64,000 nt of DNA from Halolamina pelagica. Lineage in GTDB: Archaea; Halobacteriota; Halobacteria; Halobacteriales; Haloferacaceae. A program made the position numbers and the translations under genes. Shown here in pieces: positions 17,388 to 52,730 of the stretch. The stretch covers positions 124,001 to 188,000 of the forward strand of contig NZ_FOXI01000006.1 in NCBI RefSeq assembly GCF_900115675.1. The letters run 5' to 3'. The notes under the pieces were generated by a model, which saw nothing but the letters and a program-made list of their open reading frames with translations, searched no databases and had not been told where the DNA came from. The first letter of the stretch is position 1, and each line of letters starts with the position of its first letter.

Positions 17388-17444
17388 CACGTCGGTCGCC
17401 GGACACCCCCCGATTTCGAGTGGAGAAGTTGAAACGTTCCGGCG

Positions 17445-23405: not shown

Positions 23406-24083
23406 TCAGGGCGCGACGCCGACGGTCAGCAGCGTTCCCCAGGTCCGATAGCGCTCGACCATCGCCTCGCGGCTGTCGAACTCCTCGTGGGGGAACTCGG
23501 ACGCGGGCGGGATCTCGATCTCGCGGTCCGGGACGTTGTCCTGCTCGGCGACGTGCAGGCCGGCGTCGCGGAACGCGTCGCGGTACTCGCTGCGGTCCCA
23601 GCGGGTCATCTCGATCTCGATGTTCGCCTGCCACCCGTGGGAGGCGACGTTCTCCTCGTAGTAGTTGACCGCGCAGTAGAACGTCCCGCCGGGTTTCAGC
23701 ACGCGCCGGATCTCCTCGAGCGTGTGGTGGGGGTCGTTCGCGTAGTAGAACGCCTCCATCGAGAAGGCGTGGTCGATCGAGCCGTCGGCGAACGGCAGGT
23801 GGTCGAAGTCGCCGACGAGGAAGCCCACGGCGTCGTCCTCGCTGTAGCCGTCGGCCTTCCGGGCCATCTCGGGCGAGCCGTCGAGGCCGTAGGCGGCGCC
23901 GATGCCCCGCTCGCGCAGCGCCCGCAGCGCGTAGCCGCTGCCGGTCCCGAGGTCGAGGACGGTGTCGCCGTCCTCGACGGGCATGCGAGCCAGGATCGGC
24001 CGCGCGGTGTGCCAGTGGCGGTCCTCCATCCCCTGCTCGCGACCCTCGGCGGCCCAGGCGTCGAACTCCTCGCGAACGCTCAT
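23406..24083 (-). CDS. Class I SAM-dependent methyltransferase
   Basis: 225 aa. The SAM-binding glycine loop is VLDLGTGSGYAL (motif I). YGLDGSPEMARKA is motif II, GDFDHLPFADGSIDHAFSMEAFYYAND is the motif II/III region (split here only for reading), and LEEIRRVLKPGGTFY is the post-III motif. The N-terminus (REEFDAWAAEGREQGMEDRHWHTA) is distinctive of a haloarchaeal subgroup. Substrate unknown; the context gives no clue. Confidence 0.9.
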   Translation of the reverse strand: MSVREEFDAWAAEGREQGMEDRHWHTARPILARMPVEDGDTVLDLGTGSGYALRALRERGIGAAYGLDGSPEMARKADGYSEDDAVGFLVGDFDHLPFADGSIDHAFSMEAFYYANDPHHTLEEIRRVLKPGGTFYCAVNYYEENVASHGWQANIEIEMTRWDRSEYRDAFRDAGLHVAEQDNVPDREIEIPPASEFPHEEFDSREAMVERYRTWGTLLTVGVAP

Positions 24084-24872: not shown

Positions 24873-25068
24873 GAAGGAGTCGTTCCAGTCGAAACGGTAC
24901 GTGCAGTCGAAGCGTTCGAAGGGGACGAAACGGTGGAAAGAGACGAAACGGTCGACGGAATCGAGACGATCGAACGAGGCGAAACGAGCCACGGAGGCGA
25001 AACGGTCGGTTGAATCGAGATGATCGACCGGGCCGATACGCCCGAACGAGTCGAAACCGTCCCGTAAG
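24873..25068. repeat. 18-base degenerate tandem repeat array, about ten units
   Basis: Units with consensus GAAACGGTCGAACGAGTC repeat in exact 18-base register from 24891 (starts at 24891, 24909, 24927, 24945, 24963, 24981, 24999, 25017, 25035, 25053), with a weaker unit at 24873. Every unit from 24891 begins with GA, and most have ACG at positions 4-6. The first copy with its left flank reads TTCCAGTCGAAACGG (24884-24898), the 5' half of an ORB without the G-string. The array fills the gap between two convergent genes, so it is outside coding sequence on both sides. It has no spacers and is not CRISPR. Confidence 0.85.
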
Positions 25069-26050: not shown

Positions 26051-26932
26051 TCAGTCGTCGATCCCGTAGTCGTCGGCCATCTCGATCACGTACCGTCCGT
26101 CCTCCTGGAGCGAGATGATGTACTCCTTCCGGTCGTACAGCTCCATGAGGTTGAGTTCGTACTGGCCGGGGGCGGTGATCTTGATGCTCTCGAACTGCTG
26201 GTTGAGTTCCTCCCGGAGCGCCCGCAGGTCGGTGTCCTCGTCGGTCACGGGCTCCTCGCGCTCCGGCGCCGAGCCGGCGACGGGCTGCTTCTCGACCGGC
26301 TCGTCGTCCTCGGGGCCGAGGGCACCCGAGAGGGCGAACTCGTCGGGGTCGGCTCCCGACGGCGTCTCTGTCGGCGGCCCCTGTGGCGTCCCGCGGCCGC
26401 GGCCGTCCGATGGTACCTCGCTCTCGCCATCCGACGGCGCCTCGCTCTCGGCGTCGGCCACCCGGCGACGCGCCTCGTCGATCTCGTCGGGGCTGGCCGC
26501 GGCCGAGCGCGCGTCGCGCTGGGCGCTGTTCTCCGCGCCCGTGTCGTCGGCGATCTCCGCGTCTCGGAACTCCTCGTCGGCGGGCGTCGACTCCGCGGGG
26601 GCGGCGTCGACAGCGTTGTCAGCGGGACCGGTACCTCCAGTCGGCTCCACGTCCCCCGCGGACTCCGGGTCCGACACGGGTTCGGCCGGCTCAGCTGCGG
26701 CTGCCGTTTCCCCGGGCTCCGCCGTCGATGGCGCGTCCGACTGGTCGGTCAGCGACGGTTCCTCCGACTCGACGGGGTCAGTGTCGGCCGGCGACGCCGG
26801 CTCGTCGGGCTCGGGGCTCCGGTCCGGCGGCTGGAACTGGAACTTGTTCCCGCCGCAGTTCGGACAGCCCGAGAGCATCTCCTTGGAACCGTCGTCGAAC
26901 TGCCGGCCGCAGGTGGTACACTCGTGGGGCAC
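26051..26932 (-). CDS. oapC: Origin-associated zinc-ribbon protein OapC
   Basis: 293 aa from a GTG. The N-terminal zinc ribbon has two Cys pairs (CTTC and CPNC) in HECTTCGRQFDDG and GCPNCGGNKF. About 180 residues of acidic, Ser/Glu/Asp-rich disordered sequence follow. The C-terminus is a small conserved domain (FESIKITAPGQYELNLMELY, then KEYIISLQEDGRYVIEMADDYG). This arrangement and the position after oapB fit the OapC/ArvC family found beside haloarchaeal oriC1. Its molecular role is not established. It is the last gene of the oapA-oapB-oapC operon leading away from the origin. Confidence 0.9.
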   Translation of the reverse strand: MPHECTTCGRQFDDGSKEMLSGCPNCGGNKFQFQPPDRSPEPDEPASPADTDPVESEEPSLTDQSDAPSTAEPGETAAAAEPAEPVSDPESAGDVEPTGGTGPADNAVDAAPAESTPADEEFRDAEIADDTGAENSAQRDARSAAASPDEIDEARRRVADAESEAPSDGESEVPSDGRGRGTPQGPPTETPSGADPDEFALSGALGPEDDEPVEKQPVAGSAPEREEPVTDEDTDLRALREELNQQFESIKITAPGQYELNLMELYDRKEYIISLQEDGRYVIEMADDYGIDD

Positions 26933-26936
26933 GGGC

Positions 26937-27359
26937 CTACTTGCGGGAGACGAGCGTGCTGATGAGGTTCTCGTCCTTGTGCAGCGTCTCGATCTGGTTG
27001 GCCGGGCCGATCACCGTCAGCTTCTGGGTGTCCTCCTTCCCCATCAGTCGGTCGAACAGCCCGGGGTTGGTCGAACTCGACTTGGGGTACGTCTCGATCT
27101 CGATGCCGTTGAACTCGTCCGGGCTGATCTCCGTCATCGTGACCTCGATCAGCTTCGACTCCTCGTCGGGGGTGAGCCCCTCCTCGAGGATCACGATGTT
27201 GCCCTCGCGAACCCCGTCGAGGATCAGCCGGATCTTCTCCATGCTCGTGAGCCCCTCCATCCGGGCGCCGCTGATCATGTCGACCCGGACGCCGTCGTCG
27301 GGGCCGTCCTCACCCTCGGTGGGTCCTCCGTCGCCGTCGCCGCTGGTTACTTCGGGCAT
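26937..27359 (-). CDS. oapB: Origin-associated DUF2073 protein OapB
   Basis: 140 aa. After a 25-residue acidic lead, a compact alpha/beta domain reads VRVDMISGARMEGLTSMEKI, RLILDGVREGNIVILEEGL and KLIEVTMTEISPDEFNGIEI. The sequence near 85-100 (YPKSSSTNPGLFDRLMG) is also typical of the DUF2073 (OapB/ArvB) family. The gene follows oapA with two bases between stop and start and precedes oapC by four bases. The three always travel together next to haloarchaeal origins. The function is unknown but probably depends on the OapA GTPase. Confidence 0.92.
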   Translation of the reverse strand: MPEVTSGDGDGGPTEGEDGPDDGVRVDMISGARMEGLTSMEKIRLILDGVREGNIVILEEGLTPDEESKLIEVTMTEISPDEFNGIEIETYPKSSSTNPGLFDRLMGKEDTQKLTVIGPANQIETLHKDENLISTLVSRK

Positions 27360-27361
27360 TG

Positions 27362-28003
27362 TTAGGAGAAGTACTCCGCGATTTTCTCGTACACTTCGTC
27401 CATGTTCTGTCCCTCCAGGGCCGACAGGGGGATCGTCTCGTGCTGCGGGAACGCGTTCGCGATCCGCTGGATGTCCGACTCCTCCTTGTCGATCTTGTTC
27501 GCGAGGATCAGTACCGGGAGCTCCTGGCTCTCGATGATGCCGATCAGCATCGTGTTCACCTGGGTGAACGGGTCGTCGGTGCTGTCGAGCACGTAGATCA
27601 CGCCGTCGACGTCCTCCCGGAGCCAGTGCATCGCCTCCGCGACGCCCTCGGTGGCCTCGCGGGAGCGCCGGACGGCGTCCTCCTTCTCCATGTCGTGCTC
27701 GAGGAACTCCTCGTAGTCGACTTTCGTCGCCACGCCGGGCGTGTCGACGATGTCGATGGTGACCTCCTTCCCGTCGCGCTCGATGGTCACCCCCTCCTTG
27801 CGGCGGGCGCGTCGTGTCTCGTGGGGGATGTGACTCTCCGGGCCCACCGCGTCGCCGGTCCAGTCGCGGGCGATCCGGTTCGCCAGCGTGGTCTTCCCGG
27901 CGTTGGGCGGGCCGTATATCCCGATTCGCTTCGGCTCCTCTGAGGCAAACAGGCCGTCGGTGACCCGCGTAATGCTGTCTTTTAGACTCGTGAGCAGACC
28001 CAT
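27362..28003 (-). CDS. oapA: Era-like GTPase OapA, origin-associated
   Basis: 213 aa from the ATG at 28003. The G motifs are all present: G1 GPPNAGKTT near residue 30, G3 DTPG, G4 NKID and G5 SALEGQN. The N-terminus MGLLTSLKDSITRVTDGLFASEE is characteristic of the origin-associated family; the frame remains open upstream into the origin but that part is not protein-like. A GGAG lies close before the ATG. OapA heads the operon transcribed leftward from oriC. Links to replication initiation or chromosome segregation are inferred from position only. Confidence 0.93.
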   Translation of the reverse strand: MGLLTSLKDSITRVTDGLFASEEPKRIGIYGPPNAGKTTLANRIARDWTGDAVGPESHIPHETRRARRKEGVTIERDGKEVTIDIVDTPGVATKVDYEEFLEHDMEKEDAVRRSREATEGVAEAMHWLREDVDGVIYVLDSTDDPFTQVNTMLIGIIESQELPVLILANKIDKEESDIQRIANAFPQHETIPLSALEGQNMDEVYEKIAEYFS

Positions 28004-28196
28004 CCTTATCTCCTGCCCCCGCTGCTGTAGGGGGCTGTTACTCTGAGTACCACCGGCGACACACTTAAGAATGGCGTCAGACGGGGTGGAACCCCTGAGC
28101 CGCGTCGACGAGCGAAACGCCGGTCGAGTCGACGATTCATCAAAACGTAGGTAAATCGAGTGTCGTCCTCGGGAGAACGTCAGCGAGGGGTACTGT

Positions 28197-28220
28197 TTCC
28201 ACTCGAAACGGAGGTGGGTG
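28197..28220 (+). other. Origin recognition box 1
   Basis: Reads TTCCACTCGAAACGGAGG and then TGGGTG. It is the left member of the convergent pair left of the A+T-rich element; its G-rich end points right. Confidence 0.88.
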
Positions 28221-28315
28221 TTCGCTCGAACACGGTTGCGAATGCGGAGTTTTCCCGAACGAGGTCGGTACACCGGCGATCGAACGGGATACCGATCTCC
28301 CGAACCGACGGTGAA

Positions 28316-28344
28316 CACCCCCACCCCCTCGTTTCCCGTGGAGC
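28316..28344 (-). other. Origin recognition box 2
   Basis: On the minus strand it reads GCTCCACGGGAAACGAGGGG and continues with a long G-rich tail. It faces box 1, and its 5' end is nearest the A+T-rich element. Confidence 0.88.
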
Positions 28345-28346
28345 GA

Positions 28347-28371
28347 CACGGTAGGGGAGGGGAGGGGTGTC
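28347..28371 (+). other. G-rich tract beside the unwinding element
   Basis: Three GGGG runs separated by single A residues, preceded by GG, lie between box 2 and the A+T-rich block. It is not an ORB. It could form a two-tetrad quadruplex or act as a spacer; this is only a possibility. Confidence 0.5.
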
Positions 28372-28387
28372 GAGCTGGCGGCAACAC

Positions 28388-28480
28388 ACGTAACTAATCA
28401 AATCATATCTCCAATAAAGAAAGAACGAAGATTGCAGTACGGACTAATCTATCGTCGTGCGTAGTAAAACTACCGTTCGA
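28388..28480. other. A+T-rich duplex unwinding element
   Basis: From 28391 to 28440, 35 of 50 bases are A or T, by far the most A+T-rich stretch of the window; A+T richness continues less strongly to 28480. It is bracketed by the two convergent ORB pairs, as expected for the site of initial strand opening. Confidence 0.85.
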
Positions 28481-28529
28481 TAGGTGGCGGTTTCTGCCGC
28501 TTCTCGACCCCACCCCCCACCGTTACCGT

Positions 28530-28558
28530 GTTCCAGGCGAAACGAAGGGGTGGGGGGG
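28530..28558 (+). other. Origin recognition box 3
   Basis: Reads GTTCCAGGCGAAACGAAGGG followed by a long G-string with one T. It is the first box right of the A+T-rich element. A weak inverted half-match (28508-28527, minus strand) abuts it. Confidence 0.9.
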
Positions 28559-28563
28559 TTTCG

Positions 28564-28588
28564 ACCTCCCCATCGTTTCCAGTCCACC
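28564..28588 (-). other. Origin recognition box 4
   Basis: The minus strand reads GGTGGACTGGAAACGATGGG and then GAGGT. It faces box 3 with five bases between the G-rich ends, making a compact convergent pair. Confidence 0.8.
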
Positions 28589-28688
28589 AAGGATTCCCGA
28601 CGATCGAGGCACCATGCCGTCAGTGAATTCTGTTCCGGATCGTATCCCGCCAGCGTCGGGATGGTTCCGTCGCCGTGCAGTCCGGTCT

Positions 28689-28709
28689 CGACCCTCCGTT
28701 TCACCTCTG
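28689..28709 (-). other. Weak origin recognition box 5
   Basis: The minus strand contains AGGTGAAACGGAGGGTCG, a core match with a poor 5' half. Binding is uncertain. Confidence 0.5.
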
Positions 28710-28754
28710 TGCGGCGACGCCCCGTGTGAGGGCACCCAGGGGCGCTCTCGGGTC

Positions 28755-28781
28755 GTCGACTAACACGCTCAGTCGACTAAC
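28755..28781 (+). repeat. Direct repeat GTCGACTAAC in the origin
   Basis: GTCGACTAAC occurs at 28755-28764 and 28772-28781 (17-base spacing), followed by a third GTCGAC near 28785 and related CGACCAAC words near 28808 and 28825. It is a separate word from the ORB and could be a binding site for another factor. Confidence 0.65.
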
Positions 28782-28868
28782 CCAGTCGACCGGCCAGTTC
28801 CACCTGCCGACCAACTGGCGCCATCGACCAACGCCAGCTACCGTGGCCCTCGACGGCATCGACGGGGA

Positions 28869-28897
28869 ATCCAGTCGAAACGGAGGGGAAGGCGGGG
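28869..28897 (+). other. Origin recognition box 6
   Basis: ATCCAGTCGAAACGGAGGGG followed by AAGGCGGGG. A near-consensus box between the origin core and orc1. Confidence 0.85.
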
Positions 28898-29088
28898 ATT
28901 CCCGTACAGGGTCGCGGTGTCCGATGGCCCGTAACCCGTCGCGCAGTGCCGGTCCAACAGGGACAGGTTTTTGGTACCCCTATTCATTTGGTTCGAGTGC
29001 ATCAACTGGACGGCGCCTCGGAAAACTTCGCGACGAATCGGGCCTTGCAGGCGGTTGCACGGCAGATATTCCGATTCCGGCTGCCGTT

Positions 29089-29110
29089 CTCCACACGAAA
29101 CGCAGGGGTA
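29089..29110 (+). other. Origin recognition box 7 on the orc1 promoter
   Basis: CTCCACACGAAACGCAGGGG ends six bases before the orc1 ATG at 29116 and covers the likely transcription start given a TATA-like GATATT at 29064-29069. Orc1 bound here would block its own transcription. Confidence 0.8.
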
Positions 29111-29115
29111 TCCAA

Positions 29116-30927
29116 ATGAACGACACCGACGACACAGGTTCGGAGGAAGAGGGCGGTCCGAGCGATAGCTGGCCGATCGCGGACGACGGCGAGGGCGACG
29201 ACGAGCCCGCTCCCGCGGACGCTGCCACCGCAACGGGCGACGCCGGGGACAGCGACGGCAAACCGGCCGACGCCGACGAAACGGTCGCCGACGAAACTGA
29301 CGCCGACCCGACAGACGCCAACGCCGCGACCGACGCTCCCGATCCCGCGGCGACCGAGAGCGCGACTGACGGCGACGGCGATGGGGACGACAGTGCGCCT
29401 AAGGAGGACGGGACGGATCCGGCTTCGGTCCTCGACACCGGGAGCGAGACCGTGACCGACGGCGTCGACGGCTCGATCGACAGCTCGGTCGACCTCGACA
29501 CCGGCGGCGTCGACATCGACCGGATGCTGGAGGACGACGGCGACAGCCAGGGGCTGTTCGACGACCTGATGGCCGGGGAGCCGATCTTCAGCAACAAGGA
29601 GGTCCTCAGACCCTCCTACACGCCCCACGAACTCCCCCACCGGACCGACCAGATCAACCAGATGGCCACCATCCTGGTGTCGGCGCTGCGCGGGGACACG
29701 CCGTCGAACATCCTCATCTACGGCAAGACGGGGACCGGGAAGACCGCGAGCGCGAAGTTCGTGAGCCAGGAACTGGAGTCCACCTCCCAGAAGTACGACG
29801 TGCCCTGCGAGGTGGAGTACATCAACTGCGAGATCACCGACACGCAGTACCGCGTGCTCGCCCAGCTCGCGAACAAGTTCATCGAGAAGAACCGCGAGAT
29901 CGTCACGGACCGACTCGAGGATCTCCGCGAACTCCGCTCGGCCGCGGCCGACGACGCCGACGTGCTCGCGGACACCGAGTTCGGTTCGGTCGAAGACGTC
30001 GACGAGGAGATCGCCGAACTGGAGGCCGACCGCGACGAGATGGAGGAGGTCCCCATGACCGGGTGGCCCACCGACCGCGTGTACACCAAGTTCTTCGACG
30101 CCATCGACTACCACGAGCGCGTGGTCGTCATCATGCTCGACGAGATCGACAAGCTCGTCGAGAAGTCCGGCGACGACACGCTGTACAACCTCTCCCGGAT
30201 GAACTCGGAGTTGGAGAACTCCCGGATCTCGATCATGGGCATCTCCAACGACCTGAAGTTCACCGACTTCCTCGATCCCCGGGTCAAGTCGAGCCTGGGG
30301 GAGGAGGAGATCGTCTTCCCCCCCTACGACGCCAACCAGCTCCGGGACATCCTCCAGCACCGCTCGGACGTGGCGTTCAAAGACGACGCGCTGACCGACG
30401 ACGTGATCCCGCTGTGTGCGGCGTTCGCGGCGCAGGAGCACGGGGACGCGCGACGCGCCCTCGACCTCCTCCGGACGGCGGGCGAACTCGCCGAGCGCAG
30501 TCAGGCCGAGACCGTCGAGGAGCAGCACGTCCGGCAGGCCCAGGACAAGATCGAACTCGACCGGGTCGTCGAGGTCGTCCGCACCCTCCCGACCCAGAGC
30601 AAGATCGTCCTGTTCGCGACCATCCTGCTCGAGAAGAACGGCGTCCACAACATCAACACCGGCGAGGTGTTCAACATCTACAAGCGCCTCTGCGAGGAGA
30701 TCGACGCCGACGTGCTGACCCAGCGCCGGGTCACCGACCTCATCAGCGAACTCGACATGCTGGGGATCGTCAACGCCGTCGTCGTCTCGAAGGGTCGCTA
30801 CGGCCGCACGAAGGAGATCTCGCTGTCGGTTCCGATCGAGGAGACCGAACACGTCCTGCTCTCGGACTCCCGGCTCGGCGACATCGAGAACGCCCAGCCG
30901 TTCGTGCAGGCCCGGTTCGACAACTGA
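29116..30927 (+). CDS. orc1: Orc1/Cdc6 origin-binding initiator
   Basis: 603 aa from the ATG at 29116. An acidic, Ala/Asp-rich N-terminal extension of about 145 residues precedes the conserved protein. The AAA+ domain starts near FDDLMAGEPIFSNKEVL, with Walker A GKTGTGKTASAKF, Walker B VVIMLDEIDKLV and sensor FTDFLDPRVKSSLGEEEI. An acidic insertion of about 35 residues sits between them. The C-terminal winged helix (about 500-590; GEVFNIYKRLCEEIDADVL, QRRVTDLISELDMLGIV) reads the ORBs. Orc1 binds the adjacent origin and loads the MCM helicase. The ORB over its promoter suggests autorepression. Confidence 0.97.
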   Translation: MNDTDDTGSEEEGGPSDSWPIADDGEGDDEPAPADAATATGDAGDSDGKPADADETVADETDADPTDANAATDAPDPAATESATDGDGDGDDSAPKEDGTDPASVLDTGSETVTDGVDGSIDSSVDLDTGGVDIDRMLEDDGDSQGLFDDLMAGEPIFSNKEVLRPSYTPHELPHRTDQINQMATILVSALRGDTPSNILIYGKTGTGKTASAKFVSQELESTSQKYDVPCEVEYINCEITDTQYRVLAQLANKFIEKNREIVTDRLEDLRELRSAAADDADVLADTEFGSVEDVDEEIAELEADRDEMEEVPMTGWPTDRVYTKFFDAIDYHERVVVIMLDEIDKLVEKSGDDTLYNLSRMNSELENSRISIMGISNDLKFTDFLDPRVKSSLGEEEIVFPPYDANQLRDILQHRSDVAFKDDALTDDVIPLCAAFAAQEHGDARRALDLLRTAGELAERSQAETVEEQHVRQAQDKIELDRVVEVVRTLPTQSKIVLFATILLEKNGVHNINTGEVFNIYKRLCEEIDADVLTQRRVTDLISELDMLGIVNAVVVSKGRYGRTKEISLSVPIEETEHVLLSDSRLGDIENAQPFVQARFDN

Positions 30928-30957
30928 TCGCGTTTCGGCTGACTCGGTCGTCGACGC

Positions 30958-30980
30958 GCTCCACTCGAAACGGTGGGGGT
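30958..30980 (+). other. ORB-like box after orc1
   Basis: GCTCCACTCGAAACGGTGGG with two more G residues lies in the 66-base gap between the convergent orc1 and signal peptidase genes. It matches the origin boxes as well as those in the core. A weaker copy (GTGGACCCGAAACGGTGGCG, 31062-31081) is inside the 3' end of the signal peptidase gene. Confidence 0.75.
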
Positions 30981-30993
30981 ACGGGCGAACGAG

Positions 30994-31812
30994 TTAGCCC
31001 ACTGCTGCCGTCGCCGTTGCCGTCCCAGCCGTCTGAACCTCGCCGACCACCTCGATTTCGTGTGGACCCGAAACGGTGGCGTTCTCGGACAGCACTGATT
31101 CGGCAGTCGTCACGCCCGCGGCACTACCGTCGACGGGTCCGGTCGTCGCTGCACCCGAAAAGCCCAGCCGGACCCAGCCGAGGTACGGGATCCGGACGCG
31201 GGCGGTGCCGACGACCCACTCGGCTTTCACCGGCGGGCTGATGTTGTTCGTCTGGTCGTAGTACGCGTTGTTGTCGCCCTTCGTGATGAAGCCGTCGTGG
31301 GGGGCCGGACAGTTGTCCATCTGCTCGCAGTTGTCGGCGCCCTGCACCCACGCCTTGTTGGCCTCGTCGTACCAGTTCTCGCCCTCCCCGACCCAGAATC
31401 GGGCGCGGTGGATGATCGGCGGACCGACGTTGCCCGCGCTGTCGTAGACGATCACGGTCCCGTAGTCGTTGAACGTCTCGTAGCCCACCTCCTCGCCGAC
31501 CTGGTGTGTGACGACGCCGGTGCCCTCGCGGGCGGCGTCGGGCGCGAACCGGCCGGGTTCGGTGACGAAGATCAGGTCCCCCTTCTGCATGTTGGGGTCC
31601 ATGCTCCCGCTCTCGACGGCGACCATCGGCGGCCAGACGCCGCTGATCGCGAACAGCAACAGCCCGACGGCGGCGACGGTCGCCATGCTGGTCAGCATCT
31701 CGCGGGCGAACATCAGCGGGCCGCTCTCGGCGGTCAGAAACCGTCTGAGCAGGCCGTCCGGTTCGTCGTCCCCGGCGGACGGCTCCGGCGGCGGACCCTC
31801 GCCAGCACTCAT
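30994..31812 (-). CDS. Signal peptidase I (S26, archaeal type)
   Basis: 272 aa from the ATG at 31812; a GTG further upstream is possible. One N-terminal membrane helix (about 40-60) precedes the catalytic Ser70 in VESGSMDPNMQKGD. The His of the archaeal Ser-His dyad is in PIIHRARFWVG, and Asp residues in GFITKGDNNAYYDQ correspond to the third catalytic box. A C-terminal Thr/Ala/Val-rich tail follows. The enzyme removes Sec signal peptides at the outer face of the membrane. A signal peptidase gene beside orc1 is a recurring feature near haloarchaeal origins. Confidence 0.92.
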   Translation of the reverse strand: MSAGEGPPPEPSAGDDEPDGLLRRFLTAESGPLMFAREMLTSMATVAAVGLLLFAISGVWPPMVAVESGSMDPNMQKGDLIFVTEPGRFAPDAAREGTGVVTHQVGEEVGYETFNDYGTVIVYDSAGNVGPPIIHRARFWVGEGENWYDEANKAWVQGADNCEQMDNCPAPHDGFITKGDNNAYYDQTNNISPPVKAEWVVGTARVRIPYLGWVRLGFSGAATTGPVDGSAAGVTTAESVLSENATVSGPHEIEVVGEVQTAGTATATAAVG

Positions 31813-34066: not shown

Positions 34067-34172
34067 CGCTCCCGAGGACTCCGGAGCGCTCCGGGGGAGG
34101 CTTTCACGTGGTCGTCAGACGTGCTCCCCGGCTGCGGTTTCGAACTGAAGCGAGGGGGTTCGCCGTAACGCC

Positions 34173-36024: not shown

Positions 36025-37743
36025 CTACACGAACTTCCGGACGGTCATGTCCAGCGTGTCCAGGTCGAGGATCGGCGCGTAGCCGTAGTCGGGGTCGATG
36101 TTGACGGACTTCTGGAAGTCGGTCTGCTCCTGCCAGCAGCCGGAGTTGACCGCGAGGACGTTGTGGTACTTCCCCCACCCGAGCTTGTGGACGTGGCCGG
36201 TGTGGAACACGTCCGGCACCTCGTCGATCACGAGGTAGTCCGTCTCCTCGGGCGCGACGCGGGTGTGGCCGCCGTACTGCGGGGCGACGTGGCGCTTCTT
36301 CAGGAGTTGGTACATCGCCTTGTGCGGCTCGTCGTAGCTCGCTTTCTCCTCCGGGAGTTCGGCGATCACCTCGTCCAGCGAGACGCCGTGGTACATCAGC
36401 ACCGAGACGCCCTCGACGGTGACCGTCGACGGGTTGCCCGTAAACCGGGCGTCGTGGGCGCTCATGATGTCCCGGAGTTCCTCGGTGAAGGCCGGTTGGG
36501 GTTCGGCGAGCCGCACCGCGTCGTGGTTCCCGGGGATCATCACGATCTCCATGTCGCCGGGCACCTTCTTGAGCTCCTCCGCGAACGCCTCGTACTGCTC
36601 GTAGATGTCGACGATGTCGAGTTCCTCGTCCTGGTCCGGATAGACGCCGACGCCCTCGACCATGTCGCCGCCGATGAGGAGGTACTCGACGGACTTGGCC
36701 TCGGGGGTGTGGAGCCACTCGGCGAAGCGGTCCCACGCCCCCTGCGCGAACTCCTGGCTGCCGACGTGGACGTCGGAGATCAGCGCCGCCTGGACGTGTC
36801 TGTCGGCGGTGTTGGGCTTGTGGGTCCGGGGGACGTCGGGGAAGTGCAGCGAGTCGACGAACATGATCCCGCCGTCGTCGGCCAGGGTCCCCTGTACCGC
36901 GAGACACTCGTCGAGCAGCAGGTCGTCGACGAGCGGCGCGAACGCGCGGTCCTTCATGATCAGGCAGGGGAAGGTCCCGGTCGTGTCCTCCAGTTCGACG
37001 ATCCAGTGACCCGACGCAGTCGAGCGGATGTCGTCGACGAGCCCGATCATCTCGGCGTCGCTCCCGCCGGGCATCGACTGGATCGCCTCGGCGGGTCGGT
37101 GGTTCACGCGACCGCGCAGGAGCCCCGAGAGCCGCTCGTAGCGGTCCTGAAAGGTCCCGACGAACTCCTCGTACTGGCCGGTCCCGGTCGAGCGGCCGGT
37201 CACGTCGTTGGCGATCTCGGGTGCGGGCGGCGAACGGTTGCCCACGGCGTCGGCGGTCGCGGTCGGCGATGACGAATTAGTGGACCCCTCCGTTTCGACT
37301 CCGCTACCCGCCTCCTTCGACCGATTTTCAGAATTTTTCGCTCCAGTCGAAACGACGCTCCCGTCGCGGCCCGCCTCGGCGGACTCCGGCGACGAGTCAC
37401 CGTCGTCGGTCAGCAGTTCCTCGGCGGGAGTGGGGTCGTTCTCCCCGCCCATGTCCGTCGGCACCTTCTCCGCGAGGTCCGGCGCGCCCTCGGGCGTTTC
37501 GGGGTGGGAGAGCTCGTCCGGAGTCGCCTCGCTGTCGGGGTCGCCGCCGAGCAGGTCGTCCTCGAGTGCCGTGCGGGCGTGGTCGACGGTCACCACGAAC
37601 GCGTCGCCGGCGGCGTCGGCGGCCGCCTCCGCGGCGAGTTCGGGGTTGCCGGCGTTCGCGAGGAGGGTGACCGCCTCGCGCTCGGCGTTGTACCCCCGGC
37701 TCGTGAGTTCCTGCACGAGCCGTCGGTGGGACTCCTGTGGCAC
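36025..37743 (-). CDS. polB: DNA polymerase D small subunit DP1 (3'-5' exonuclease)
   Basis: 572 aa from the GTG at 37743; the open frame above it lacks conserved sequence. The N-terminal 60 residues are a small helical domain (VQELTSRGYNAEREAVTLL). Some 130 residues of acidic low-complexity linker follow, then an OB fold and a calcineurin-like phosphoesterase domain. Its metal motifs are SDVHVGSQ, GGDMVEG, GNHDA, YHGVS and HTGHVHK, all intact, so the proofreading exonuclease should be active. DP1 partners the large subunit encoded at 44670. The linker coding region contains two ORB-like sequences. Confidence 0.95.
   Translation of the reverse strand: MPQESHRRLVQELTSRGYNAEREAVTLLANAGNPELAAEAAADAAGDAFVVTVDHARTALEDDLLGGDPDSEATPDELSHPETPEGAPDLAEKVPTDMGGENDPTPAEELLTDDGDSSPESAEAGRDGSVVSTGAKNSENRSKEAGSGVETEGSTNSSSPTATADAVGNRSPPAPEIANDVTGRSTGTGQYEEFVGTFQDRYERLSGLLRGRVNHRPAEAIQSMPGGSDAEMIGLVDDIRSTASGHWIVELEDTTGTFPCLIMKDRAFAPLVDDLLLDECLAVQGTLADDGGIMFVDSLHFPDVPRTHKPNTADRHVQAALISDVHVGSQEFAQGAWDRFAEWLHTPEAKSVEYLLIGGDMVEGVGVYPDQDEELDIVDIYEQYEAFAEELKKVPGDMEIVMIPGNHDAVRLAEPQPAFTEELRDIMSAHDARFTGNPSTVTVEGVSVLMYHGVSLDEVIAELPEEKASYDEPHKAMYQLLKKRHVAPQYGGHTRVAPEETDYLVIDEVPDVFHTGHVHKLGWGKYHNVLAVNSGCWQEQTDFQKSVNIDPDYGYAPILDLDTLDMTVRKFV
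37283..37305 (-). other. ORB-like box inside the DP1 gene
   Basis: The minus strand reads CGGAGTCGAAACGGAGGGG, which keeps the ORB core and G-string. It lies in the coding sequence of the disordered linker, where codon choice is free. Confidence 0.65.
37340..37360 (+). other. Second ORB-like core inside the DP1 gene
   Basis: GCTCCAGTCGAAACGACGCT has a perfect TCCAGTCGAAACG core but no G-string. It lies 35 bases from the box at 37283-37305 and is oppositely oriented. Confidence 0.5.
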
Positions 37744-37867
37744 GACACTCTCTCGGCGAGGCCCGGGCAAAAGCGTGACGACGCGTGCGCGGTCGCGTCG
37801 CCGAAGCTCGCGTGACGCCCGTTCCGGGTTCGGCACGGCTAAGCGAGCGGCGGCCCCAGCCTCCAGC

Positions 37868-52508: not shown

Positions 52509-52634
52509 ATGGAGATCGGACTGATCGAGATCCTGATCGCCGCGATCGTACTGTTCGTAGTGCTGGGGGTCCTCTACGCCCTGTTCCAGCGCGAGGGCGA
52601 GTCCCTGGAACTCCTGCTGGAGCTGGCGGACTGA
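52509..52634 (+). CDS. 41-aa single-helix membrane protein
   Basis: From the ATG at 52509 the frame encodes MEIGLIEILIAAIVLFVVLG, then VLYALFQREGESLELLLELA and D, stop at 52632-52634. One membrane helix is followed by a charged amphipathic end. The position 48 bases after the previous gene on the same strand, acid-rich tail and high third-position G+C make it believable. Role unknown. An ORB-like sequence begins one base after the stop. Confidence 0.62.
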   Translation: MEIGLIEILIAAIVLFVVLGVLYALFQREGESLELLLELAD

Positions 52635-52657
52635 TCTCCAATCGAAACGAAGGGGTG
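52635..52657 (+). other. ORB-like box 24 kb from the origin
   Basis: TCTCCAATCGAAACGAAGGG plus GTG matches the origin boxes, including the G-string. It lies between the 41-aa gene and the XPD-type helicase gene, in non-coding sequence. Confidence 0.75.
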
Positions 52658-52730
52658 TAGACGGTTCGCTTGCGGGTGGTTTCCTGCCAGTCATTTTTCC
52701 GTTCGGAGTTTCCGGCCTCGCGACCGAGAA

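Follow-up and report, generated by a model that had tools for sequence, protein, structure and literature searches.

We analysed a 64,000-nucleotide stretch of haloarchaeal DNA (the window), which is part of a 205-kb contig in a draft genome of 37 contigs and 3.16 Mb, and found that its region at 28.0–29.1 kb is almost certainly the oriC1 replication origin of a Halolamina-like haloarchaeon. The region lies between orc1/cdc6 and a small GTPase gene, which we take to be oapA, and contains six origin recognition boxes (ORBs). The origin itself is a new member of the known oriC1 family and its core is ordinary. Boxes of the same type, here called satellites, also lie outside the origin and gather around it, and we are very confident that they are real and selected.

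We searched for boxes with a 31-column weight matrix built from those in 85 oriC1 intergenic regions; the window is among the 85, which introduces a small circularity. (Four of 89 loci, L081, L082, L085 and L088, were left out of the 85 as duplicates of the window, L001, L002 and L087.) All six boxes listed in an earlier note on this DNA were recovered within about 4 bases of where it had placed them, with scores of 15.0 to 38.1 bits. The best scores in 1,000 first-order Markov shuffles of positions 28004–29115 had a mean of −11.3, a 99th percentile of 3.9 and a maximum of 11.0. The exact sequence CCANNNGAAACGNNGGGG occurs seven times in the genome, six of them on the 205-kb contig and four inside 28004–29115; with one mismatch permitted there are 16 matches, against three for the pattern read backwards. 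The A+T-rich block (28388–28480) that the note had described between its first two pairs of boxes is likewise there, at 62% A+T against 30% in the window, and the inner spacings it had given as about 95 and 5 bases come to 93 and 3 between the 31-base boxes. Four boxes were absent from the note: one just 3′ of orc1 (30955–30985, plus strand) and three solitary ones, at 17399–17429 (minus), 34135–34165 (plus) and 52632–52662 (plus).

The organization of the core follows that of a characterized origin. In the minimal oriC1 (oriC1m) of Haloarcula hispanica, an A+T-rich region lies between two inverted boxes with extended G-strings at the outer ends and an inner G-rich inverted repeat; loss of a box impairs replication, mutation of either G-string abolishes function, the inner repeat acts as an enhancer, and only the inner pair and the A+T region are needed (PMC3936714). 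The window matches oriC1m element by element: left box, G-rich arm, A+T element, C-rich arm, right box. Its core boxes, 28317 (minus) and 28527 (plus), are inverted around the A+T-rich element with a gap of 179 bases, and both carry an extended G-string (6 and 7 G of 8). An inner divergent pair around an A+T-rich element, with the G-strings pointing outward, is present in 81 of the 85 oriC1 loci; the remaining four loci are truncated at contig ends and contain no oapA. Because of the match to H. hispanica and the recurrence in 81 loci, the inner divergent pair, rather than two convergent pairs, is the natural grouping of the boxes. By this comparison, the firing unit is most likely the pair 28317–28347 (minus) and 28527–28557 (plus) around the unwinding element. 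A strict pattern for the inner G-rich inverted repeat found both arms in 29 of the 81 loci, a smaller share than the 'most haloarchaea' stated in PMC3936714.

Within the unwinding element, alignment of the 81 core gaps revealed columns that are 94–98% one letter, namely GG at 28441 and 28442, T at 28448 and TAAA at 28465–28468. A first, badly chosen pattern for this motif matched 24 of the 81 (null mean 8.5). A second pattern, written after viewing the sequences, matched 34 of the 81 against a null mean of 0.2, with no match in the window or in the other Halolamina. Since this pattern followed inspection, and since the window and the other Halolamina are unmatched, the motif is only a lead.

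We compared the G-strings of core and other boxes. At least 5 G in the 8 bases after the G4 block were present in 162 of 162 core boxes and, among boxes scoring above 20, in 5 of 83 plus-strand boxes between the core and orc1 and in 6 of 77 satellites. The matrix had included the G-string columns, and we therefore repeated the count without them; at least 5 G were then found in 159 of 164 core boxes, in 16 of the 142 remaining intergenic-region boxes and in 9 of 112 satellites. Among oriC1-type boxes, the extended G-string is mainly confined to the two beside the unwinding element, and most outer, core-to-orc1 and satellite boxes belong to a short-G class.

The earlier note had read the boxes as two convergent pairs of unequal spacing around the A+T-rich element. 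The geometry it described is true, but is probably not that of a functional unit. The outer boxes are less widely kept than the core pair: the left one stands at −153/−154 in seven of seven Halolamina and is absent from that position in the other 74 core-bearing loci, and the right one scores above 8 in four of the seven Halolamina. Neither outer box of the window has an extended G-string (the left one has 5 G of 8 in L083 and L087), and H. hispanica, as noted, requires just the inner pair and the A+T region. What speaks for the convergent arrangement is the left spacer, which is kept at 92–93 bp in all seven Halolamina even though its sequence shows little conservation (mean pairwise identity is 0.56 there and 0.73 in the core gap, compared without a null); this suggests that the fixed spacing is selected in Halolamina. 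We consider it very unlikely, nonetheless, that the two convergent pairs are the functional units of the origin.

The gene neighbourhood points to oriC1 as well. The adjacent orc1/cdc6 gene matches the profile of the oriC1 family above its cut-off. The gene order of haloarchaeal oriC1 given in the Figure 2 legend of PMC4010727 (GTP-binding protein, cdc6, sec, pol) is found in the window by profile matches: a signal peptidase (sec) gene lies to the right of orc1 (TIGR02228, 45.0 bits, under the cut-off of 51.85), and DP1, the small subunit of PolD, about 4 kb past sec. The closest named relative found was Halolamina rubra, with 86% identity in Orc1. The earlier claim of a complete oriC1-type origin is thus supported by the boxes, the A+T-rich element, the adjacent orc1 of the right family and the canonical gene order (Table 1).

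The GC-skew inversion that the earlier note had proposed as a check was seen, though weakly: the cumulative skew peaks at 24021, 4 kb left of the boxes, and this is the maximum of both the window and the whole contig (permutation of 1-kb blocks of the window, 0.0004). In G005, a relative available as a single contig, the skew is +711 in the 40 kb left of orc1 and −348 in the 40 kb right of it; in samples from elsewhere in that genome it is small and changes sign more than once. The skew therefore favours an origin here, without proving it. On the window contig and in G005 alike, the sign runs from plus to minus across oriC1. The usual sign at bacterial origins is the reverse.

Next to orc1, the box that abuts the start codon (29085–29115) is a candidate autoregulatory site. 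A 44-base block at 28969–29012, about 104–147 bases upstream of the orc1 start, is about 80–90% identical in many of the non-Halolamina loci listed and is probably the orc1 promoter. An upstream peptide was also considered, from an open reading frame that begins at GTG 28997, overlaps the orc1 ATG and is seemingly conserved in Halolamina rubra; it was dropped because the frame stops after 12 codons in L083. Farther left, GAAACG occurs five times at 24889–25005, partly at intervals of 18 bases, in repetitive sequence that reads ETVERDETVDGIETIERGETSHGGETVG in one frame; these copies do not register as ORBs.

Table 1. Features of oriC1 and its surroundings in the window (G counts refer to the 8 bases after the G4 block)
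Feature	Position	Strand	Details
Core left ORB, extended G-string pointing away from the A+T element	28317..28347	-	31.3 bits; 6 G of 8
Core right ORB, extended G-string	28527..28557	+	38.1 bits, best in the window; 7 G of 8
Inner G-rich arm GGGGAGGGGAGGGG, corresponding to arm III of the H. hispanica enhancer	28354..28367	+	Sequence read against PMC3936714
Inner C-rich arm CCCCACCCCCC, corresponding to arm IV of the H. hispanica enhancer	28508..28518	+	Sequence read against PMC3936714
A+T-rich duplex-unwinding element	28388..28480	.	62% A+T; most A+T-rich 60 bases of the window begin at 28393
Conserved sequence within the unwinding element	28441..28468	+	81 aligned core gaps
Left outer ORB without extended G-string, genus-specific, fixed spacer	28193..28223	+	23.4 bits; 3 G of 8
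Right outer ORB, weak, without extended G-string	28561..28591	-	15.0 bits; 3 G of 8
Additional ORB between core and orc1	28865..28895	+	26.0 bits; 6 G of 8
ORB abutting the orc1 start codon	29085..29115	+	26.3 bits; last base precedes ATG 29116; 0 G of 8
Satellite S1, ORB between the converging orc1 and signal peptidase genes	30955..30985	+	24.3 bits; absent in G005
Degenerate counterpart of satellite S2, inverted ORB pair inside the DP1 coding sequence	37278..37367	.	Box starts 59 bases apart; scores near 4 and −3
Satellite S3, lone ORB 11 kb to the left of the core, in a convergent gap of 56 bases	17399..17429	-	23.4 bits
Satellite S4, lone ORB 24 kb to the right of the core, upstream of a Rad3/XPD-like helicase gene	52632..52662	+	31.7 bits
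Weaker satellite, 5.8 kb right of the core	34135..34165	+	17.8 bits; same place in G005 and G006
orc1/cdc6, oriC1 family	29116..30927	+	NCBIfam NF001625, 655.7 bits (cut-off 501); Pfam Cdc6_C, Cdc6_lid
Small GTPase, the GTP-binding protein gene of oriC1 synteny	27362..28003	-	MMR_HSR1, small_GTP; PMC4010727, Figure 2 legend
oapB	26937..27359	-	Pfam PF09846 OapB, E 3e-43
oapC	26051..26932	-	Pfam PF09845 OapC, E 1e-27
DP1, PolD small subunit, host gene of S2	36025..37836	-	NCBIfam NF003116, 934.5 bits

Satellites crowd around oriC1 in other genomes too. In G005, three of the four window satellites recur at a similar distance and in the same orientation (the one at 30955 is absent), and 26 stretches sampled from that genome at distances above 150 kb from orc1, 520 kb in all, yielded no box above 12 bits. 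The exact pattern TCCANNNGAAACGNNGGGGT has 83 sites in 71.4 Mb from 20 genomes (19 genera), 42 of them in the origin intergenic region. Thirty of the other 41 lie within 40 kb of orc1, where 0.9 would be expected if they were uniformly spread (binomial 3.5e-41); five lie at 40–100 kb, six at 100–500 kb and none farther. At least one satellite within 40 kb is present in 16 of the 20 genomes. Read backwards, the exact pattern gave no site in any genome so checked, including the 20-genome set, the other families and the ten named genomes described below. A wider scan for the exact pattern covered 147 genomes, at least 141 of them with a match; its listing was kept out of the counts, and it too gave no backward site.

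In other families, a core pair could be placed in 24 of 33 genomes, from eight of nine families; eight of the 32 genomes with sites, including the sole genome of family f7, were left out of the count, as the exact pattern gave no core pair in them. Within 40 kb lie 32 of the 48 non-core sites of these 24 genomes, against 1.0 expected, and 18 of the 24 have a satellite there; two further sites lie at 40–100 kb, nine at 100–250 kb, two beyond and three on other contigs. (For G162, a circular contig of approximate length was assumed, and the satellites exclude 15 boxes lying no more than 1.5 kb from the core.) Among ten named genomes, 46 of 49 exact sites are within about 35 kb of the core, and of the three outlying ones Halobaculum litoreum has the first, at 184 kb, Haloglomus halophilum the second, at 524 kb, and Haloarcula amylolytica the third, on a separate contig. 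The 4.0 Mb of Haloferax massiliensis contain six exact sites, two in the core pair and four as satellites, with all six inside 34 kb; in the three named Haloferax genomes searched, 17 of 17 exact boxes fall in a 34-kb stretch that includes oriC1; and the four exact sites of Haloarcula sebkhae are the core pair and one inverted pair.

In genus g3, an exact oriC1-type box stands about 185–217 kb from the core among the genomes listed (G049, G071, G083, G093 and G098), and this recurrence suggests that rarer satellites exist farther out. We rejected an outward orientation of the satellites, which is true of the window and G005: the 20 genomes give five plus and four minus on the left and 16 plus and five minus on the right, a lean to plus on the right side with no general outward rule. 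A description of distant oriC1 boxes was not found in the literature searched, supplements and key older papers excepted.

We analysed the placement of the satellites relative to genes, using a simple codon-usage gene caller that left long gaps in G012, an error that the intergenic counts carry. The 22 assemblies have 104 satellites scoring above 14 bits. Intergenic sequence, where 21% of random positions fall, holds 73 of them, and gaps between convergent genes, where 3.8% fall, hold 26. It could be that Orc1 regulates transcription at the satellites or marks the ends of genes there, with their clustering reflecting an origin-proximal regulon. In favour of this, a box adjoins the start codon of orc1, S4 is upstream of a helicase gene, 46 of the 73 intergenic satellites are in tandem or divergent gaps able to hold promoters, and Sulfolobus Orc1-2 is, in the excerpt of PMC9738581, a transcription regulator. 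Promoterless convergent gaps are, however, over-represented (26 of the 73 intergenic satellites against 18% expected, binomial 3e-4), which makes gene regulation improbable as the role of the satellites; the DP1 pair, furthermore, sits within coding sequence.

Several satellites keep their places in different genomes. A box above 12 bits is present in the gap between orc1 and sec, the place of S1, in 25 of 73 named loci. The S3 box was found in nine of the 11 genomes (seven of nine genera) where both of its genes face each other, in gaps of 45 to 1711 bases, and is missing from G049 and G055. Its orientation relative to the gene pair is the same in the nine (G029 has an extra box that is reversed), and in G062, where the pair lies on the opposite side of the origin, the box is retained. 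For S4, an exact box stands 24–34 kb from the core on the orc1 side in seven of seven Halolamina, and it adjoins the same helicase gene in the four Halolamina checked and in one genome of genus g24.

S2 is an inverted pair located beyond sec in 35 of 70 named loci (counted with no shuffled control and without checking that every pair falls inside DP1), with a spacing of 59 bases in 32 of the 35. Inside the DP1 coding sequence, a pair was found in 14 of 20 assemblies (sum of scores at least 28, some with a weak half), plus G010; two of the 22 genomes scanned had no DP1 in the stretch. In G005 and G000 the pair is degenerate at spacing 59, in G010 the best pair is elsewhere and the 59-base pair was seen separately, and the scan gave none in G007, G012 and G016. 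The DP1 peptide at S2, PSVSTG...PVETEGS or similar, lies in the DP1 linker, and its pattern is present in 15 of 20 genomes. Since its glutamate is encoded by GAA and its glycine by GGG in 15 of 15 genomes, against 31% and 27% in the DP1 background, the constraint on S2 appears to be on the DNA.

These positions also bear on whether the satellites are relics, origin-box copies without function that local duplication or rearrangement left behind. Their nearness to the origin, the lack of particular ones in some genomes and the degenerate DP1 pair of the window would fit such an origin. It is hardly credible, though, in view of the orthologous positions across genera, the 59-base spacing and the unpreferred codons kept in DP1.

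We think it fairly probable that the locus as a whole is an oriC1 with a long-G firing pair, accompanied by short-G boxes that bind Orc1 without firing, the satellites among them titrating it. Orc1, encoded alongside, would bind the two outward-facing core boxes on either side of the A+T-rich element and, by analogy with H. hispanica and with Sulfolobus oriC1, would recruit the MCM helicase onto that element, leading to bidirectional replication. Only the long-G pair beside the unwinding element would load the helicase; the short-G boxes (outer, most core-to-orc1 and satellite) would hold Orc1 without firing, and the box abutting the orc1 start codon would permit autorepression. Satellites near the origin would double soon after firing, sequester Orc1 and postpone re-initiation. 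Among single readings of the satellites, titration is the best, both because origin-proximal boxes double just after firing and because of the precedent of oriC2D, an ORB-rich region that restrains H. hispanica oriC2, likely via titration, as stated in an excerpt of PMC3936714. As their main role, we put it at slightly short of an even chance.

Several points weigh against this account. The preference for convergent gaps, the orthologous positions and the fixed 59-base pair are not required by titration alone. Some sites are far from the origin (in the other families, two of 48 beyond 250 kb and three on other contigs; in the named genomes, one at 524 kb), and no exact satellite lies within 40 kb in four of the 20 genomes and in six of the 24 from other families. 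Exceptions to the two-class rule include the box at 28865 (plus), with 6 G of 8; in total, they make up 25 of 254 non-core and 5 of 164 core boxes. Because of the kinship among genomes, the binomial and P values overstate the number of independent events and are indicative only. Orc1 binding and firing at the boxes of the window are predicted from sequence. Haloarchaea, in addition, are polyploid. The oriC1 of H. hispanica is deletable, according to the same excerpt of PMC3936714. For these last two reasons, strict once-per-cycle control may be unneeded.

The main rival to titration is that Orc1 at the core and satellites bridges distant DNA, aiding compaction, segregation or co-localisation of origins, in the manner of parS-type sites near bacterial origins. 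The sites are concentrated around one locus and thin with distance, they prefer intergenic and convergent gaps, and their positions are kept across genera, even with the gene pair across the origin in G062. Deleting cdc6A from H. hispanica, moreover, is far more difficult than deleting oriC1, and the authors take this to indicate a vital function outside oriC1 initiation (PMC3936714). However, a bridging activity of Orc1 is hypothetical, and many satellites are single boxes of variable spacing, a handful per genome; we regard such an origin domain as unlikely, though less so than gene regulation. More broadly, and tentatively, oriC1 may be the centre of an order-wide field of selected short-G Orc1 boxes, spread over tens of kilobases and including the DP1 pair, that forms the cis part of the vital Cdc6A function outside oriC1, as a counter of origin copies or a domain organiser, in which G-string length separates firing from non-firing boxes.

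If the satellites bind Orc1, they would be a cis element for why the initiator of H. hispanica oriC1 is, in the excerpt of PMC3936714, far harder to delete than oriC1 itself. They would also constitute an archaeal initiator-titration or origin-domain system comparable to bacterial DnaA-box clusters. With the G-string rule, it becomes simple to predict the boxes that fire.

In B. subtilis, initiation is limited by DnaA-box clusters, groups of initiator boxes located outside the origin. The datA locus of E. coli, named in the excerpt of PMC3936714, likewise has initiator boxes off the origin that limit initiation; for the satellites this function is proposed. Compared with datA and the DnaA-box clusters, the initiator is another one, in another domain of life, and the satellites crowd around the origin. 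H. hispanica oriC2D also has extra ORBs outside an origin and a proposed role in initiator titration, but is, in the excerpted text, a dense cluster directly downstream of cdc6E, with a different initiator, whereas the satellites are mostly single boxes spread over tens of kilobases and belong to oriC1 (PMC3936714). Downstream of orc1 the window has, instead of such a cluster, a single strong box (30955, 24.3 bits), with two weak boxes in 31041–31088 (11.8 and 10.2 bits).

In Sulfolobus oriC1, as the excerpt of PMC12141716 describes it, inverted ORBs flank the duplex-unwinding element (ORB2-DUE-ORB3) and a conserved motif, ucm, lies inside it; the haloarchaeal motif resembles ucm in position only, the motif sequences being uncompared. 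With H. hispanica oriC1m the window shares the A+T element between inverted ORBs, the outward extended G-strings, the inner G-rich repeat and the adjacent cdc6A (PMC3936714); it differs in being known from sequence and in having four further boxes in the same intergenic region, one of them at a genus-fixed distance. It shares the initiator, the ORB sequence and the gene order with the haloarchaeal oriC1 family, described from 15 genomes in the excerpts of PMC3528665 and PMC4010727. That earlier prediction of haloarchaeal origins, as far as the excerpt of PMC3528665 tells, covered the intergenic regions flanking orc/cdc6 genes, and the distant boxes fall outside it because only those regions were examined.

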